64,000 nt of DNA, from the NCBI GenBank assembly GCA_024637315.1, contig JAGXFH010000078.1, forward strand, positions 1 through 64,000, in the 5' to 3' direction. Source of the DNA: Brevirhabdus sp. (GTDB lineage Bacteria > Pseudomonadota > Alphaproteobacteria > Rhodobacterales > Rhodobacteraceae). A program made the translations under genes and the position numbers. The notes under the pieces were generated by a model. That model was given only the letters and a program-made list of their open reading frames with translations, was not told where the DNA came from and searched no databases. Shown one piece after another: positions 53,380-62,872 of this stretch (position 1 is its first letter; every line of letters starts with the position of its first letter).

Positions 53380-54432
53380 TCAGTCCTCCAATACATCATC
53401 CCCTGACTCGCCAGTGATTAACGCCCGTTGCCGTTCACGGCTGATTTGGCCGTAGCTGCGCAAGGTTGTCAGAACATCGGTGTGACCAAGATTTTGCGAG
53501 GTGGCCACCAGTTCGGCGACAGAAGTGCAGGTTTTTGCGGCTCGGCGAGCGAGCATGTGTCGGAAGGCGTGCGGGCCGAAGGCAGGTAAGTTTGCAGCCT
53601 TAAAGGCTTGATTGACGATCTTGCGCACAGGTTCAGTGCTTTTCCATTGGCGGCGCTCGAAACCTTCTGCCTTGAATCCAGTGTGGGCGACAGAGGAAAG
53701 CGCCGTTGCGGGGAATAGCGGATCGTCGGGGCCGTAGAGTTCAGCATCGTCCAGATGTTTGATCCATGCAGAGAAGGCAACTTCGGCCTCTTCAAAACCC
53801 TTTGCAAAGAAGGTGTCGATACGCGCGCCGAATTTCGTCGCCACCTGGCGCGGATTCTGGGTCACGGATTTTTCAGCCAGATCGATGTGCCTGATTCGCA
53901 GTGAGACAAGCGCCGCTACGCGAATGCCAGTCAGACACAAAAGCGCGAAAACGGCCTTTTCGCGCATCTGGCGGGCCGTCTTGTCGGGCATCAGGGCCAG
54001 GGCGCGTTTGGCTTGTTTGATGCTTGGTGCCGGGCGCGCGGGTGCTGCACGGGCTTCGGCCTCGTCGCGGCGTGACAGGTTAAAATAATCGGCATCCGCC
54101 GGTTTGATCCGGGTGCGAAAACCATCCTGTTGAGACAGCCACAGGGTGAATTCTCGCATGGTCGCCATAATTGCGCGCGTGGTGGACTTGCCCAGAGGCT
54201 TGCCGGTAGCGCTCTTGGCCTCTTCCAGATGCGTGCGAAAGCCCATGGCCCATTCGATGTGAAACCGTGCGAAATCGTTGCGCCCGTTCCACACATCGAA
54301 ACGCTCCAGCGTGGCAAGTTCCTTGTCGAGCGTCTTGTCCGAAAGCCGCTTTGCATGTTTGCGGTACTCCAGGAAACGGCGCTTGATCCGCTCGTTTTGT
54401 TCATTAGGTCGCTTGCTCATTTCTACCTCCAT
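53380..54432 (-). CDS. tyrosine recombinase/integrase
   Basis: 350 residues. The core-binding N-terminal domain (about 10-125) precedes the catalytic domain with Arg in CLTGIRVAALVSLRIRHIDL, H-x-x-R in GPHAFRHMLARRAA, LGHTDVLTTLRSYG with the His and the Tyr nucleophile in the C-terminal part. It is complete. Its 3' end faces tRNA-Ser, the usual layout for tRNA-targeting integrases. Likely function: integration and, with a directionality factor, excision of the element. Confidence 0.92.
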   Translation of the reverse strand: MEVEMSKRPNEQNERIKRRFLEYRKHAKRLSDKTLDKELATLERFDVWNGRNDFARFHIEWAMGFRTHLEEAKSATGKPLGKSTTRAIMATMREFTLWLSQQDGFRTRIKPADADYFNLSRRDEAEARAAPARPAPSIKQAKRALALMPDKTARQMREKAVFALLCLTGIRVAALVSLRIRHIDLAEKSVTQNPRQVATKFGARIDTFFAKGFEEAEVAFSAWIKHLDDAELYGPDDPLFPATALSSVAHTGFKAEGFERRQWKSTEPVRKIVNQAFKAANLPAFGPHAFRHMLARRAAKTCTSVAELVATSQNLGHTDVLTTLRSYGQISRERQRALITGESGDDVLED

Positions 54433-57281: not shown

Positions 57282-57523
57282 ATCTTGACCTCTGCCGTAA
57301 TGTGCGCGGTAAATATGGTGTTCGGAGATGTTCATTGCAAGTCATCTTGGTTCAGGCGAAGCCGCAGTTTCGGCTGGTCTCATCTCGCCCAAGGTGCAAT
57401 GTAACGGTTGCTGGGGGCGTCTCACGTTGCATTCCCGGTCAAAGGAAATACGCGGCAAGAGCAAGAAGAAGAGCCGAAGCAGAACCAATTCTCGACCAGC
57501 GCTATTTGCAAGGAGCCGCGCCC

Positions 57524-58555
57524 ATGTCTCGCCTGACTGATCTCATTGCACAGGCGAAAGTGAAGGACGTCGACCTGGGGCGGGAATTGGAGCGGGAGTT
57601 CAAGGCGCTCGCCAGCCGCCGGTCCTTCGGACTGAACTTCGAGCGGCACACGCCCGAGACGGTCGAACTGCCCGGACAGCCGATCCGCAAGGGCGACAAG
57701 GTGCGGGTGCTTCCGCCCCGTGGCAGCACGGAGAAGGGCGACAAGCGGCTGTGGAAGGTGGTGCGGACCACCAAGGCCGATGGTCAGCGGGCAGCGCAGC
57801 TTGACCTGATCGGGGCCGATGAGCCGGAGACGCAGACCGTCCGGGTGGAAGACATGATCGTGGTGGCCGAGTTTCGGGACTACATCTACCCTGGCCTTGT
57901 CAGCACCGGAAAGGTCGAACGGGGCGGGGACAAGCCGTTTCATACCGTGATCAACGGAGAAAACTTCCACGCCCTGGAGGCGCTGACCTTTACCCATCGG
58001 GGAAAAGTGGACGTGATCTATATTGATCCGCCCTACAATTCGGGGGCAAGTGACTGGAAATACAACAACAATTACGTCGGGGATGAAGACATCTATCGAC
58101 ACTCGAAGTGGCTGGCGTTCATGGAGAGGCGGCTTCAAGTTGCCAAGGAGTTATTGAAGCCCAGCGGGGCTTTGATTGTGACAATTGATGAGCACGAAGT
58201 TAGACGCCTTGGCCTGTTATTGGAGCAGACCTTGCAATAACACACAATTCAACAGGTCACTATCGTCAACAACCCGAAGGGCGTTACTCAAGGCTATTTG
58301 TCGAGGGTTGAGGAATATGCGTTCTTTTGCTTTGGCCCAACCTGTCAGATTTTTCCGGCTGATGATGACCTATTGACCATAAGGGAAGAAAAAGAAACAG
58401 CGGACGGGCTTTCCCGTCCTAGATGGAAGGGTTTACTCCGATCCGGCGACGAAGCTCAACGAGTAGACAGAGAGCAGATGTTCTATCCGATCTGGATTGA
58501 TCCGAGATCAGGAAAGATCATTAAGGCAGATAAATCGTCGCCACCCACTTTATGA
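57524..58555 (+). pseudogene. type III-like DNA methyltransferase, broken by a stop and truncated
   Basis: The ATG at 57524 follows AAGGAG. The protein matches the N-terminal part of site-specific adenine DNA methyltransferases of the Mod type: VINGENFHALEAL, VIYIDPPYNSGASDW with the catalytic DPPY, and LLKPSGALIVTIDEHEV. An in-frame TAA at 58238-58240 interrupts it. Homology continues in the same frame (TIVNNPKGVTQGYLSRVEEYAFFCF, then YPIWIDPRSGKII) and stops near 58540, with a stop at 58553. The restriction subunit and the C-terminal target-recognition part are missing. It is probably inactive. Confidence 0.8.
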
Positions 58556-58766
58556 CGGCCTCGCGCCAGCCCGTGTGAAGACGCGGGCAGAGGAGACCGG
58601 GCGCATCCTCACCGAAATTCCTCTAACGGCACTTGCGGCAACAATCCGCAGCGGCCTAGACTGCCCGGACGTTGGCCGACAGGTTTGCTACGATAACGTC
58701 GGCGCGGCCGGCAGATCCGACGATGGACATCCGATGGCCGCTGATTTGAGGCGAAGGAGCAGCGGT

Positions 58767-60317
58767 TTGGAAGAAGTTGTGGCCAACCGACTAGTTGTGG
58801 ATGACGCTTCGGTTCTGGTCGTGGATGACAGTCGGGTCAGCGCGATGAAGCTGGCGAAGGCTATGACCGCCCTCGGGCACCGTGTGGAGACGGTGTTCGA
58901 CGGCAGGTCCGCCGTCGATCTCATAAGAAACCGCTCCTTCGATGTGATTCTGCTCGACATCGTGATGCCGGAAATGGATGGCTACGAGGTCCTTGCCCTT
59001 CTCAAGTCCGATCCGGACCTGCGAGACTTGCCGGTAATCGTCATATCTGCGCTCGAAGACGAGGCCGGCAGCGTTGCCAGAGCCCTGGAACTTGGCGCGG
59101 AGGATTTCCTGCCGAAGGATTTCGACCTTGCGATCCTGAAAGCGCGTCTCAAGTCCTCCCTCATCAAGAAGCGCTACCGCGACCGCGAACTCGAATATCT
59201 GCACGACGTCGAAACTTTGACGAAAGCCGCCCAAGTGATTGAAGCCGGAGCGTTCCGCCCTTCGGAGCTTGAAATAGATGACGTGGCCGTCCGAAATGAC
59301 CAATTGGGACGCCTTGCGAATGTGTTTCGAGGCCTTGCCCAGGCGATATACGACCGCGAACGGCGCATGGACCGCAGAACGCGCACCCTGTGGGGCACGA
59401 TCATGGTAATCGTCGCAGGTAGCCTGTTCGCCATCGGACCTTCGCTGAGCAGGCTTGGCGCGGAATTGGGCGCGACCGCTTTCGGACTGGCGGTCTGGTC
59501 GAATGTCGTGGGGGCGGTTGTGTGTCTCGCTATAGGCGCCGCCCGAACGGGATTTCCGCGACTCCGGTTGGCTCACATGCGTTTCTATCTGCTCTGGGCA
59601 CTGGTTTATGGATGTCTTTACAAGCTGTGGCTCGTGGTTGTCGCTGAGAACGTCGAAGCAACGGTGATCGCTCTCGTCGCCAGTTCTCGCGCTTTCATGG
59701 TGTTCGCGCTTGCCGCGCTGATCGCGCTGGAACGTCCAAACCTGCGCCGCCTTCTCGGCTTGGGGATAGGGTTTGCCGCAGTGGCGGTTGTCCTTATTTC
59801 CCGGGGCGCCGACGCGCAGGGAACCGCGGCCATCTGGCTACTGGCCGCACTTGGACTGCCGGCCCTTCTGGCTGTGCACACGCTATTGATGGTCTGGCGG
59901 CCAAGGGAGATCGACGCTTTCATTACGACGGGCATCATGCTGACGATCTCCGTCTTTTTCCTTATCCCGGTTGCGGTGTACACGGACCGGTTGTTCCTTC
60001 CCGATCAGTCGTTCAGTCGGCTAAACGTCATCATTGTCGTTTTCGGTGTCGCGACCGCAATTGCCGTCGCACTGGCTCTGGACCTGGTGGCAAGGGCCGG
60101 GGCCGTCTTTGCGAGCCAGATGTCCTATATTCAGACTCTCGCCGGTATTGCCTGGGGCATGTTACTGCTGAACGAAGAGCTTTCGTACGTCGCCTGGGGG
60201 GCGCTGGCCCTGGTCGTTCTGGGGTTCCTTCTCGTGCAGCCCAAACAGGCCGGCGACGAGTTTTCTGTCACGATCTTGATTGATCCACCGGACCACAGGC
60301 AGGATCCCGCAGCATGA
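58767..60317 (+). CDS. receiver domain fused to EamA/DMT transporter (paralogue 1)
   Basis: About 516 residues from a TTG at 58767 with AAGGAG 7 bases before it; longer ATG starts have no ribosome site. Residues about 14-135 are a complete response-regulator receiver: acidic pair at 20-21, phospho-acceptor Asp64 in LLDIVMPEMDG, Ser94 and Lys117 in FLPKDF. A helical linker (about 136-207) contains IDDVAVRNDQLGRLANVFRG. From about 208 to 495 there are ten predicted membrane helices in two EamA repeats. A short soluble tail follows. This is an inner-membrane protein in which phosphorylation could control transport. Only its domains are recognised; the fusion is unusual. A second copy follows 154 bases downstream. 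Confidence 0.85.
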   Translation: MEEVVANRLVVDDASVLVVDDSRVSAMKLAKAMTALGHRVETVFDGRSAVDLIRNRSFDVILLDIVMPEMDGYEVLALLKSDPDLRDLPVIVISALEDEAGSVARALELGAEDFLPKDFDLAILKARLKSSLIKKRYRDRELEYLHDVETLTKAAQVIEAGAFRPSELEIDDVAVRNDQLGRLANVFRGLAQAIYDRERRMDRRTRTLWGTIMVIVAGSLFAIGPSLSRLGAELGATAFGLAVWSNVVGAVVCLAIGAARTGFPRLRLAHMRFYLLWALVYGCLYKLWLVVVAENVEATVIALVASSRAFMVFALAALIALERPNLRRLLGLGIGFAAVAVVLISRGADAQGTAAIWLLAALGLPALLAVHTLLMVWRPREIDAFITTGIMLTISVFFLIPVAVYTDRLFLPDQSFSRLNVIIVVFGVATAIAVALALDLVARAGAVFASQMSYIQTLAGIAWGMLLLNEELSYVAWGALALVVLGFLLVQPKQAGDEFSVTILIDPPDHRQDPAA

Positions 60318-60471
60318 GATATCCGTGCCAGCGAATACCGACGCGAAAGGAGCAACGGCATGGGGCGGGGGGCGTGGCCGGACAGCCCGGGCAACATGGA
60401 TCCCAAGTCGCCCACTTGGTTGCGGCCCCAGTCCCGTCGCTGTCTGCGCATCGTAAACTGAGCATCGAATA

Positions 60472-61965
60472 ATGGGTGGCGACTGCATACTTGTGGTCGA
60501 CGACGACCGCCTGGCACGCCGCAAGCTGACACTGGCCGCCAAGGCGCTTGGCTACGGAACCGAAGACGTGGATGGCGCCGATGCGGCTTTGGAAAGGTTG
60601 CTGCAACCGGGCATAGACATCGTTCTTCTGGACATCGAGATGCCGGAAAAGAACGGCTACGATGTGCTTGAGGCGCTTCAAGCTTATCCTGCGGATCGCC
60701 GCCCCCCGGTGATCGTCGTATCCAGCCTGGACGACCCCGAAGGAATTGCGCGCGCCATCGAACTGGGGGCGGTGGATTTTCTGCCGAAGTCCTTCAATGC
60801 GGTCATTCTACGGGCCAGGATCTATGCCTGCCTGAGAGAGGCACGGCGCCAGGAAGAAGACAGGCGGACGTTGCATCAGATCGAGCGGCTGACCATCGCC
60901 GCAGAAGCGCTTGATACCGACGAAATGAACCCGCACGATCTGGATATCGACGATCTTGCCGAAAAGGAGGGTGCGCTCGCGGTGCTATCCCGCGTTCTGC
61001 TGAACAAGTCGATCATGGTGTACAACCGTCGACTGAGCCAGTCGCACCAGATCCGGACACTCCGCGGAATCCTTGGGCTGCTGTTCATCGGCGCCAGCTT
61101 TGGCCTGAAGCCCGCCATTGCCAAGCTTAGCTTGGCAGAGGTCAACAGCCCGCTTGCGGTGGCCTTTTACACCATGGGTCTCTCAGCCGTCTTTATTACG
61201 ATTTACGCCATTTCCCAGAGGGCCAAGGTGCCGACAATATCCTTGGGCTCCAGCGGTTTTTTCCTTGTTCTGGCAATTCTGACCTTTCTGCCGCAGGTCC
61301 TGTTATTCTGGGTGGCCGAAGAAGTTCCAGGCGTTCTAATCGCCATTCTCGTCTCGCTGGAATCCTTCATGGTCTTCTTCCTGGCGGCGGCTATCGGGTT
61401 GGAGAAACTGTATTTTCGACGGTTCTTTGGTCTGCTTCTGGGCGTGGTCGGGGTTGTTGTGCTTCTTATTCCGTTCTTTGATGTTGAAAACAGCGCCGTC
61501 GGCATTCACTGGATTCTGATAGCGATGATTATTCCCGCCTGCTTCGCGGGCGAAAGTATTCTTTTGTCGCTATCCAAGGCCGTTGATGCCGATCTGGTTG
61601 CCGTGATTGCCATCATCTTCGGAATCTCGACTGTGGTTCTGTTCGGGGCGGCAATGTATTTTGAAGGCCTGGTTCCGCTTGACCTCCCACCAGGGAAATT
61701 TGAATTGTCTCTCATAGCGTTTTCAATTGCGGATTCCGCGGCGATGATCGCGCTGGCGAAACTGATCGGATATGCAGGGCCGGTCTTCAGTGGTCAGAAG
61801 GCCTATACCGTCGCGACGGGCGGCGTCATCTGGAGTGTTCTGCTGCTGAATGAAGTGGTTTCTGCGACTAGCTTGATCGCGCTGTTTTTGATCCTGACCG
61901 GGTTATATTTCGTGGCAAAAAAGGCGGTAGTCCAGGAATTGATAAGGCGACCACGGCAAATATGA
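60472..61965 (+). CDS. receiver domain fused to EamA/DMT transporter (paralogue 2)
   Basis: 497 residues. The receiver at about 5-125 has the acidic pair at 10-11, Asp54 in LLDIEMPEKNG, Ser84 and Lys106 in FLPKSF, all intact. The linker (about 126-197) again has an IDDLA motif (DIDDLAEKEGALAVLSRVLL). The ten-helix EamA-like domain runs from about 198 to 485 (RTLRGILGLLFIGASFGLKPAIAKL at its start). The two paralogues are clearly related but diverged, especially in the membrane part, so they could carry different substrates or form a heterodimer. The ATG at 60472 is at the natural domain start but has a weak ribosome site. Confidence 0.85.
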   Translation: MGGDCILVVDDDRLARRKLTLAAKALGYGTEDVDGADAALERLLQPGIDIVLLDIEMPEKNGYDVLEALQAYPADRRPPVIVVSSLDDPEGIARAIELGAVDFLPKSFNAVILRARIYACLREARRQEEDRRTLHQIERLTIAAEALDTDEMNPHDLDIDDLAEKEGALAVLSRVLLNKSIMVYNRRLSQSHQIRTLRGILGLLFIGASFGLKPAIAKLSLAEVNSPLAVAFYTMGLSAVFITIYAISQRAKVPTISLGSSGFFLVLAILTFLPQVLLFWVAEEVPGVLIAILVSLESFMVFFLAAAIGLEKLYFRRFFGLLLGVVGVVVLLIPFFDVENSAVGIHWILIAMIIPACFAGESILLSLSKAVDADLVAVIAIIFGISTVVLFGAAMYFEGLVPLDLPPGKFELSLIAFSIADSAAMIALAKLIGYAGPVFSGQKAYTVATGGVIWSVLLLNEVVSATSLIALFLILTGLYFVAKKAVVQELIRRPRQI

Positions 61966-62116: not shown

Positions 62117-62872
62117 ATGCACAGACTGTACGTTGTTGTTGCCGTGGCATTGATTGGCGGCGTGACTGTTCCCCCAGTGATGGCGGAAGGCGTGACTGTG
62201 AATACGCTCGAGTGGCCGCCGTACACCTCGGCGGAGTTGCCCAAGGGGGGCGCGACGACCAATGTGGTCGTTCAGGCTTTTGCCGCTGTCGGGATGGACG
62301 CCAGCGTAAACTTCCTGCCTTGGAAACGCGCCATATCCATTGCCAAGGACGACCTGTCGGTTGCGGCCTATTTTCCGGGCTATCATTGCCGCCACGTGGA
62401 TGGTTTTGTCGCCTCGGATCCGATTGGCAACGGACCGCTGGGCTTTGTCGAAAACGTCAATGCTGCCGTGTCCTGGGCAGACATCGACGACATTGGCGAA
62501 CAAAAGCTGAAGGTCGGGACCGTACTGGGATATGCGAACACCGATGAGTTCGACGAGAAGGCCGGGACCGGGTGGATCCGTTCCATCCCCGCACCTGACG
62601 ATTTGACCAATCTGCGGAAACTGGCGCGCCAGCGCATCGATATCGCTGTGATAGACAAGTTGGTTCTGTCCTACATTCTAGCGACAGAACAATCGTTGGC
62701 CGACGACGCGGACAGCCTACGATTCAACGCGAAGCCGTTGGAGGAAAAGACACTTTATTTGTGCTTTACCGACGACGAGAAGGGGCGTGCCCTACGCGAC
62801 GCGTTCAACGCCGGGCTGGCAATGGTGGATGTCGAAAAGTCGGTCGACGAGTACTTTGAAAAAGAATTCTGA
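62117..62872 (+). CDS. periplasmic solute-binding protein (SBP family 3-like)
   Basis: 251 residues. GGATGGAG precedes the ATG. The signal peptide ends near VMA (about 23). The mature protein has the family-3 pattern: NTLEWPPYTSAELPKGGATT, then AAVGMDASVNFLPWKRAISI, VGTVLGYANTDEF and LARQRIDIAVIDKLVLSY. Such proteins bind amino acids or small organic acids, but here no permease or ATPase genes lie beside it. It overlaps the next gene, a sensor (TGATG), so a role as periplasmic input for that sensor is more likely than transport. The ligand is unknown. Confidence 0.82.
   Translation: MHRLYVVVAVALIGGVTVPPVMAEGVTVNTLEWPPYTSAELPKGGATTNVVVQAFAAVGMDASVNFLPWKRAISIAKDDLSVAAYFPGYHCRHVDGFVASDPIGNGPLGFVENVNAAVSWADIDDIGEQKLKVGTVLGYANTDEFDEKAGTGWIRSIPAPDDLTNLRKLARQRIDIAVIDKLVLSYILATEQSLADDADSLRFNAKPLEEKTLYLCFTDDEKGRALRDAFNAGLAMVDVEKSVDEYFEKEF

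Follow-up and report, generated by a model that had tools for sequence, protein, structure and literature searches.

Two-component systems usually control transporters through the expression of transporter genes. A pair of adjacent genes at positions 58767-61965 of the DNA analysed here (the window: the first 64,000 nucleotides of contig JAGXFH010000078.1 of Brevirhabdus sp., hereafter C28) raises the question of whether a phosphorelay might act on a transporter directly, for each gene encodes a response-regulator receiver followed by an EamA/DMT membrane domain. We lean slightly towards reading these fusions as terminal response regulators of a multistep phosphorelay with a membrane-transporter output. 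This reading is drawn from several sets of observations: receiver and EamA domain lie in one frame in all 12 proteins of our alignment A2, with invariant phosphorylation residues; a kinase and an Hpt protein with readable phospho-sites stand at all 12 intact loci, and the window genome has few Hpt domains and no close other kinase; the fused EamA parts show one origin, kinase-fusion distances that correlate, purifying selection, an intact DMT fold and invariant residues; and cassettes of similar build carry a receiver-cyclase as their last gene. Whether the fusions also form a new class of response regulator is, in our judgement, evenly balanced; in such a class an Hpt-fed receiver would directly gate an EamA/DMT carrier, giving fast, ligand-switched metabolite flux without transcription, and the class would have arisen by swapping the output enzyme of a relay.

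Receiver and membrane domain in one protein

The two genes and their domains are placed as follows.

58767..60317, +, receiver-linker-EamA fusion 1 (P0001); single open frame; PF00072 and PF00892
58812..59150, +, receiver domain of fusion 1; Pfam residues 12-124, expectation value (E) 2.2e-24; D16, D17, D60, S90, K113
59151..59375, +, linker of fusion 1, helical and with weak likeness to HAMP; HAMP E 0.037 (below cut-off); model helix at residues 175-229
59376..60248, +, EamA/DMT membrane domain of fusion 1; two PF00892 stretches; predicted template-modelling score (pTM) of the model 0.84, with matches to DMT-fold PDB entries
60472..61965, +, receiver-linker-EamA fusion 2 (P0002); PF00072 and PF00892
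60487..60822, +, receiver domain of fusion 2; Pfam residues 6-117, E 5.2e-21
61048..61926, +, EamA/DMT membrane domain of fusion 2; PF00892; bounds from alignment A2

Both frames are uninterrupted, adjacent and on the + strand. The start of fusion 1 at 58767 is a reasonable choice of the preliminary description (an in-frame TTG, with AAGGAG at 58754-58759); residue numbers for P0001 count from the GTG at 58779 (512 residues), to which the TTG start adds four. In a Pfam scan the window fusions matched Response_reg and EamA only, with two EamA stretches per fusion (E 1.3e-16 and 5.1e-14) and without SLC5, STAC, kinase or GGDEF domains. The two fusions share only 33% identity and are therefore old paralogues. 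The nearest relatives of fusion 1 are the fusions of genomes G032 and G276 (58 and 56% identity), and the counterpart of fusion 2 in G320 (L154:9629-11164) is 75% identical across 497 codons.

The acidic pair, phospho-acceptor Asp, Ser and Lys (D16, D17, D60, S90 and K113 in P0001) are present in both window fusions, as had been described, and proved invariant among relatives. They are retained in all 12 full-length fusions of alignment A2, each of which matches PF00072 as a response-regulator receiver. In a wider set, which omits one Mesorhizobium duplicate and includes the receiver of a broken third copy, the three Asp occur in 15 of the 15 rows having that half and the Ser and Lys in 16 of 16. 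This invariance rules out a degenerate receiver. Among NCBIfam and PDB entries, and also by Foldseek, the fusion receiver most resembles PleD and other receivers.

Because the first 50 Foldseek rows obtained with the full-length model were receiver structures, we modelled the EamA part alone. The AlphaFold2 model (pTM 0.84) shows ten helices of membrane length, of which two are split into shorter segments by kinks, and is matched at E up to 0.001 by 36 PDB chains, which we take to be DMT-fold transporters. TM-scores were 0.77 for the triose-phosphate translocator 5y78, 0.73 for LicB (7paf), 0.71 for SLC35B1 (9i20) and 0.65 for 5i20, and a sequence search of solved structures with the EamA part gave no convincing relative (best E 0.51). 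PF00892 was found in all 12 A2 proteins, and the window proteins have the two repeats, ten helices and fold of the EamA/DMT family; E318, E466, Q447, Y450 and W459 of this half are invariant in 15 of 15 rows. Pfam and the model together bear out the earlier claim of two adjacent paralogues, each joining a complete receiver to a ten-helix EamA/DMT domain.

A linker of about 75 residues connects the two parts in each window fusion, and in the model its last helix continues unbroken into membrane helix 1 (residues 175-229). HAMP was matched in one of the 12 full A2 proteins (E 3e-5). The stretch before membrane helix 1 is Arg-rich, which would fit a cytoplasmic receiver. An assembly or fusion artefact is ruled out by the identical architecture at 12 loci; the preliminary description had allowed that relatives might carry the parts in separate genes, and on checking they carried both in one gene.

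A kinase-Hpt cassette and its sister cassettes

Contig C28 continues 7.6 kb beyond the window, and the Hpt gene, a third fusion copy and the end of the kinase gene lie there. The genes downstream of fusion 2 are listed below.

62117..62872, +, exported solute-binding-like protein (P0003); stop overlaps kinase start; no Pfam match; NCBIfam EhuB E 9.7e-5, below cut-off
62872..65682 (window holds to 64000), +, hybrid sensor kinase, 936 residues; CHASE5, HAMP (below cut-off), PAS_7, HisKA, HATPase_c, two receivers
C28 65723-66082, past the window, +, Hpt protein, 119 residues; PF01627 E 6.7e-13
C28 66072 to ~67020 (L038:12073-13023), past the window, third receiver-EamA copy, broken, overlapping the Hpt gene; found by similarity search

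The frame of the third copy changes near 66587 and its similarity stops near 67020; its intact counterpart in G320 is L154:8068-9600. The kinase and the Hpt protein have readable phospho-sites (MSHEIRTP and HSLKSN, respectively). Pfam identified the parts of a multistep phosphorelay (HisKA/HATPase, internal receiver, Hpt and terminal receiver) in the window genome and in G032, and the kinase placed near the receivers by the preliminary description thus turned out to belong to a whole histidine kinase-receiver-Hpt relay. At 12 of 12 intact-fusion loci the fusion is accompanied by a two-receiver hybrid kinase and by an Hpt gene of its own (by phmmer, or by annotation for Mesorhizobium). At 11 of these the fusion directly follows the Hpt gene, with frames abutting or overlapping (by 4 bases in G032, G276 and Devosia, for example, given start codons that are set rather than proven). 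At the degraded locus of G309 the kinase is split over two frames, the receiver is truncated and no Hpt was detected. The whole window genome has two Hpt domains, one in the fusion cassette and the other apart on contig C7, and the neighbouring Hpt is therefore the likely phosphate donor; the closest other kinase of the set within this genome is no closer than 35%. The constant presence of kinase and Hpt beside intact fusions predicts that they phosphorylate the fusion receivers.

At 9 of 13 loci a binding-protein-like gene adjoins the cassette. It is P0003 or a relative in the window genome, G320, G309 and L074 (no Pfam match in these, and next to the kinase in the last three), a PF00497 gene in G290, G371 and L073, and a PF03480 gene in G032 with its relative in G276. 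None was seen at the Devosia and Mesorhizobium loci, where the kinases are of the GAF type; G1122 has a Tll0287-like gene in its place, and the contig of L075 starts inside the kinase. P0003 resembles a PF00497 protein in G375 (E 2e-8), and by itself 62117..62872 is a weak candidate for a binding protein. Since a sensor kinase is already part of the cassette and this binding-protein-like gene adjoins it at most loci, the fusion probably stands at the output end. Of the two roles first proposed for the pair, a phospho-gated exporter or a sensor-transporter, the latter becomes less likely.

If the fusions end a relay, the periplasmic binding protein and the sensor part of the kinase would read a ligand outside the cell. 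Phosphate would pass from the kinase His to the kinase's own receiver, then to the Hpt His and on to the Asp of the fusion receiver, an order suggested by established phosphorelays for residues that are all present here. Phosphorylation might alter the pairing or position of the receivers, and the linker helix running into membrane helix 1 could relay this change to the DMT domain and so alter the transport cycle. In sister cassettes a nucleotide cyclase occupies the transporter's place.

Such sister cassettes were found among 18 further loci that we annotated, picked from receiver-only or EamA-only matches. A kinase and a receiver-nucleotide cyclase occur at 15 of the 18, and a Sinorhizobium plasmid brings these cassettes to 16; Response_reg and Guanylate_cyc were found in 16 of 16 tested. 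Their Hpt is a separate gene in 10 and fused to the kinase in four; it was not seen in L083, and L172 lay outside the scan. The other three of the 18 loci carry a receiver-PAS-GGDEF-EAL protein (L040), a receiver protein without a kinase match (L106) and a stand-alone EamA protein (L164). The cyclase cassettes have the same gene order and a related kinase core, and their receiver is the nearest relative of the fusion receiver, but their output is a soluble class III cyclase and not a ten-helix membrane domain. Since these like-built cassettes end in a receiver-cyclase (16 of 16), the third gene can be regarded as an output slot. In a kinase-core tree (a quick one, with three long rows and a midpoint root) the 11 EamA-cassette kinases all fall to one side of a branch with a Shimodaira-Hasegawa-like approximate likelihood ratio test (SH-aLRT) value of 92, among the cyclase-cassette kinases. 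In G375 (L158:2527-6046) a kinase-Hpt fusion is followed by a 245-residue receiver-linker protein without EamA and then by a ParA-like gene; this receiver-linker protein adds a third output type, within a cassette that is related. We read the cyclase-ended and EamA-ended cassettes as an exchange of output modules, in either direction.

Kinases of ~1,780 to 2,330 residues precede Hpt and receiver-cyclase genes at L160-L163, L041, L042, L077, L078, L084 and L092; the L160 kinase, the one of these that was scanned, has eight GAF stretches. Large regulators with a LuxR-type (below cut-off in L075) or OmpR-type DNA-binding domain adjoin the EamA cassette at four loci (L038:13719-16574, -; L157:431-2278, -; L075:4959-6770, -; L154:11343-13034, +). 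In Mesorhizobium (L170, L171) the cassette lies ~2 kb from plasmid replication genes, and a hydroxyacid dehydrogenase gene directly follows the fusion. Upstream of fusion 1 the window carries a phage-type integrase gene (53380-54432, -) and a DNA methylase open frame (57302-58240, +) matching the first third of its Pfam profile only, which suggests a rearranged, accessory region. A remnant of a second kinase-Hpt cassette there was considered and rejected: tblastn of C28 56000-58799 (L038:2001-4800) gave just two matches (E 0.11 and 0.40).

Descent, selection and alternative roles

The 16 fused EamA rows, including both Mesorhizobium rows and the truncated G309, grouped in a single clade when set against 34 rows of stand-alone EamA proteins (ultrafast bootstrap 100, SH-aLRT 99); the latter are the best matches from the window's family and class, and a closer unfused cousin elsewhere is possible. 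The tree indicates a single origin of the fused EamA parts and lends no support to repeated independent fusions. Across 10 cassettes, kinase distances correlated with those of the EamA part (r 0.81, with 0 of 10,000 permutations as high) and of the receiver (r 0.63, 3 of 10,000), a correlation explained at least in part by block inheritance. The ratio of nonsynonymous to synonymous substitution rates (dN/dS) was 0.05 to 0.23 in six pairs, for whole genes and halves, and 0.05 to 0.20 for the EamA half. These values are rough because dS is at or near saturation, and two receiver comparisons with saturated dS gave no value. They nonetheless point to purifying selection on both halves of the fusion.

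The position of the fused clade, well apart from the stand-alone EamA proteins, would also suit a membrane receptor, in which a ligand of the EamA part alters the lifetime of receiver phosphorylation and thereby feeds or drains the relay; the accessible text on SLC5/STAC kinases describes transporter-derived sensors on the kinase side. We consider a receptor unlikely, since the cassette already includes a sensor kinase, with a binding-protein-like gene alongside at 9 of 13 loci, the slot is held in sister cassettes by a cyclase, which is an output enzyme, and neither an EamA repeat nor the DMT fold has been lost. Less likely again is that the EamA part serves chiefly to anchor the receiver in the membrane beside the kinase, where the receiver would act as a scaffold or phosphate sink, transport being irrelevant. 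The G375 protein indicates that a receiver-linker can stand without EamA, but ten helices, five residues invariant in 15 of 15 rows and the low dN/dS of the EamA half exceed the needs of an anchor. We give little credence to the receiver serving as an unphosphorylated assembly or localisation module on a constitutive transporter, given that all five active-site residues are invariant and that kinase and Hpt always accompany the fusion at intact loci.

Fusions were found in the window's family, Pseudomonas, Devosia, Geminicoccaceae and Hyphomicrobiales and on Mesorhizobium plasmids, amounting to at least 14 different full-length proteins from 12 loci; the degraded locus of G309 comes in addition. 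A single intact fusion is present at 10 of the 12 intact loci, which leaves joint action of two paralogues conjectural; only the window genome and G320 have two. A profile search of the family (394 genomes, 393 genera, three candidates scored per genome) matched both parts in seven genomes, namely the window's own, G032, G276, G320 (two copies), G371, G290 and G309 (truncated), and one part only in the remaining matches listed. Both parts were matched in one of 385 genomes of a class-wide draw (the window's own) and in three of 398 of a phylum-wide draw (own, G276, G290). Presence within genera is patchy: one of two (G290), one of three (G371), two of five (G320 and G1122) and one of two (own). 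Among the matches listed (80 loci) from 84,980 named genomes searched with receiver patterns only, at least four are full-length, from Pseudomonas sp. MMS21 TM103, a Geminicoccaceae and a Hyphomicrobiales metagenome-assembled genome, and Devosia sp. 66-14. Three of 72,556 plasmid records cover the query, all from Mesorhizobium; the two copies read, one of them on pML2037 of Mesorhizobium loti NZP2037, are near-identical and were therefore counted once, and the plasmid gene tables label them merely 'response regulator'. The Mesorhizobium and G1122 fusions were matched by phmmer only, the A2 proteins by both Pfam families. Among the matches listed from the viral library, EamA-like and receiver parts occurred only as separate proteins. 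The cassette is rare and patchy.

This rarity (7 of 394 family, 1 of 385 class and 3 of 398 phylum genomes, with absence from other species of the same genera), the degraded copies in the window genome and G309, the integrase gene nearby and the Mesorhizobium plasmids might suggest a selfish or decaying accessory gene set of no settled function, spread by mobile DNA, but the single old origin across several orders, the unvarying active site, the low dN/dS values and the kinase and Hpt that constantly accompany the fusion make this the least probable alternative of all.

Several observations weigh against the fusions being relay-ended transporters. In the full-length model (six aligned sequences; mean predicted local distance difference test score 83, pTM 0.61) the individual domains are confident and the placement of the receiver relative to the membrane part is not. 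Linkers matched HAMP below cut-off in three of five cases, one of them (L158) not from an EamA fusion, and not at all in two. In the window genome it is the broken copy that directly follows the Hpt gene; the two intact ones are found upstream of P0003 and are thus tied to the Hpt by neighbourhood. The fusions nearest to fusion 1, those of G032 and G276, go with kinases of a different branch from the window kinase; fusion 1 may thus stem from another cassette and may not be the original partner of the window kinase. Finally, no substrate gene recurs near the fusions among the neighbourhoods scanned: YcaO (G032), anthranilate synthase component I (G276), hydroxyacid dehydrogenase (Mesorhizobium), MFS (Devosia), D-aminopeptidase (G1122) and ShlB (G320) were each considered and rejected, and we therefore claim no substrate.

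Comparison with known systems

A relay ending on the transporter itself would, if true, regulate membrane flux quickly and at the post-translational level, and would offer a ready-made design for transporters switched by a ligand. Since cyclase-ended and transporter-ended cassettes exist side by side, how one receiver drives very different outputs could be tested by domain swaps. We found no report of a receiver-EamA protein in the literature searched, which left out subscription reviews of output domains, and the accessible part of PMC5847659 does not name one.

The closest precedent for joining a transporter domain to a two-component signalling domain is found in the SLC5/STAC histidine kinases CbrA and CrbS, as described in the accessible parts of PMC9100948 and PMC5715377. 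In these the transporter is on the kinase, at the input, whereas the fusions carry a transporter of another superfamily on the receiver, at the output; the window fusions, with Response_reg and EamA as their only Pfam domains, are not SLC5/STAC sensor kinases.

PleD is nearest to the fusion receiver in sequence (NCBIfam, PDB), but it makes cyclic diguanylate (c-di-GMP) and the fusions lack GGDEF. The EamA/DMT transporters 5y78, 7paf, 9i20 and 5i20 have their fold in common with the fusions and none of them carries a receiver. The TorT-TorS system likewise has a binding-protein gene beside a hybrid kinase, and the kinases of G032 and G290 match the TorS sensor domain; the window kinase, in contrast, matches CHASE5 and not the TorS domain. 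TorS signals to a DNA-binding regulator. Joins of receiver to enzyme and of transporter to kinase are already known, and the literature searched, insofar as its accessible text goes, gave no example of a receiver-transporter join that terminates a relay. In our view the fusion is a variant form of phosphorelay response regulator and does not amount to a new kind of system.

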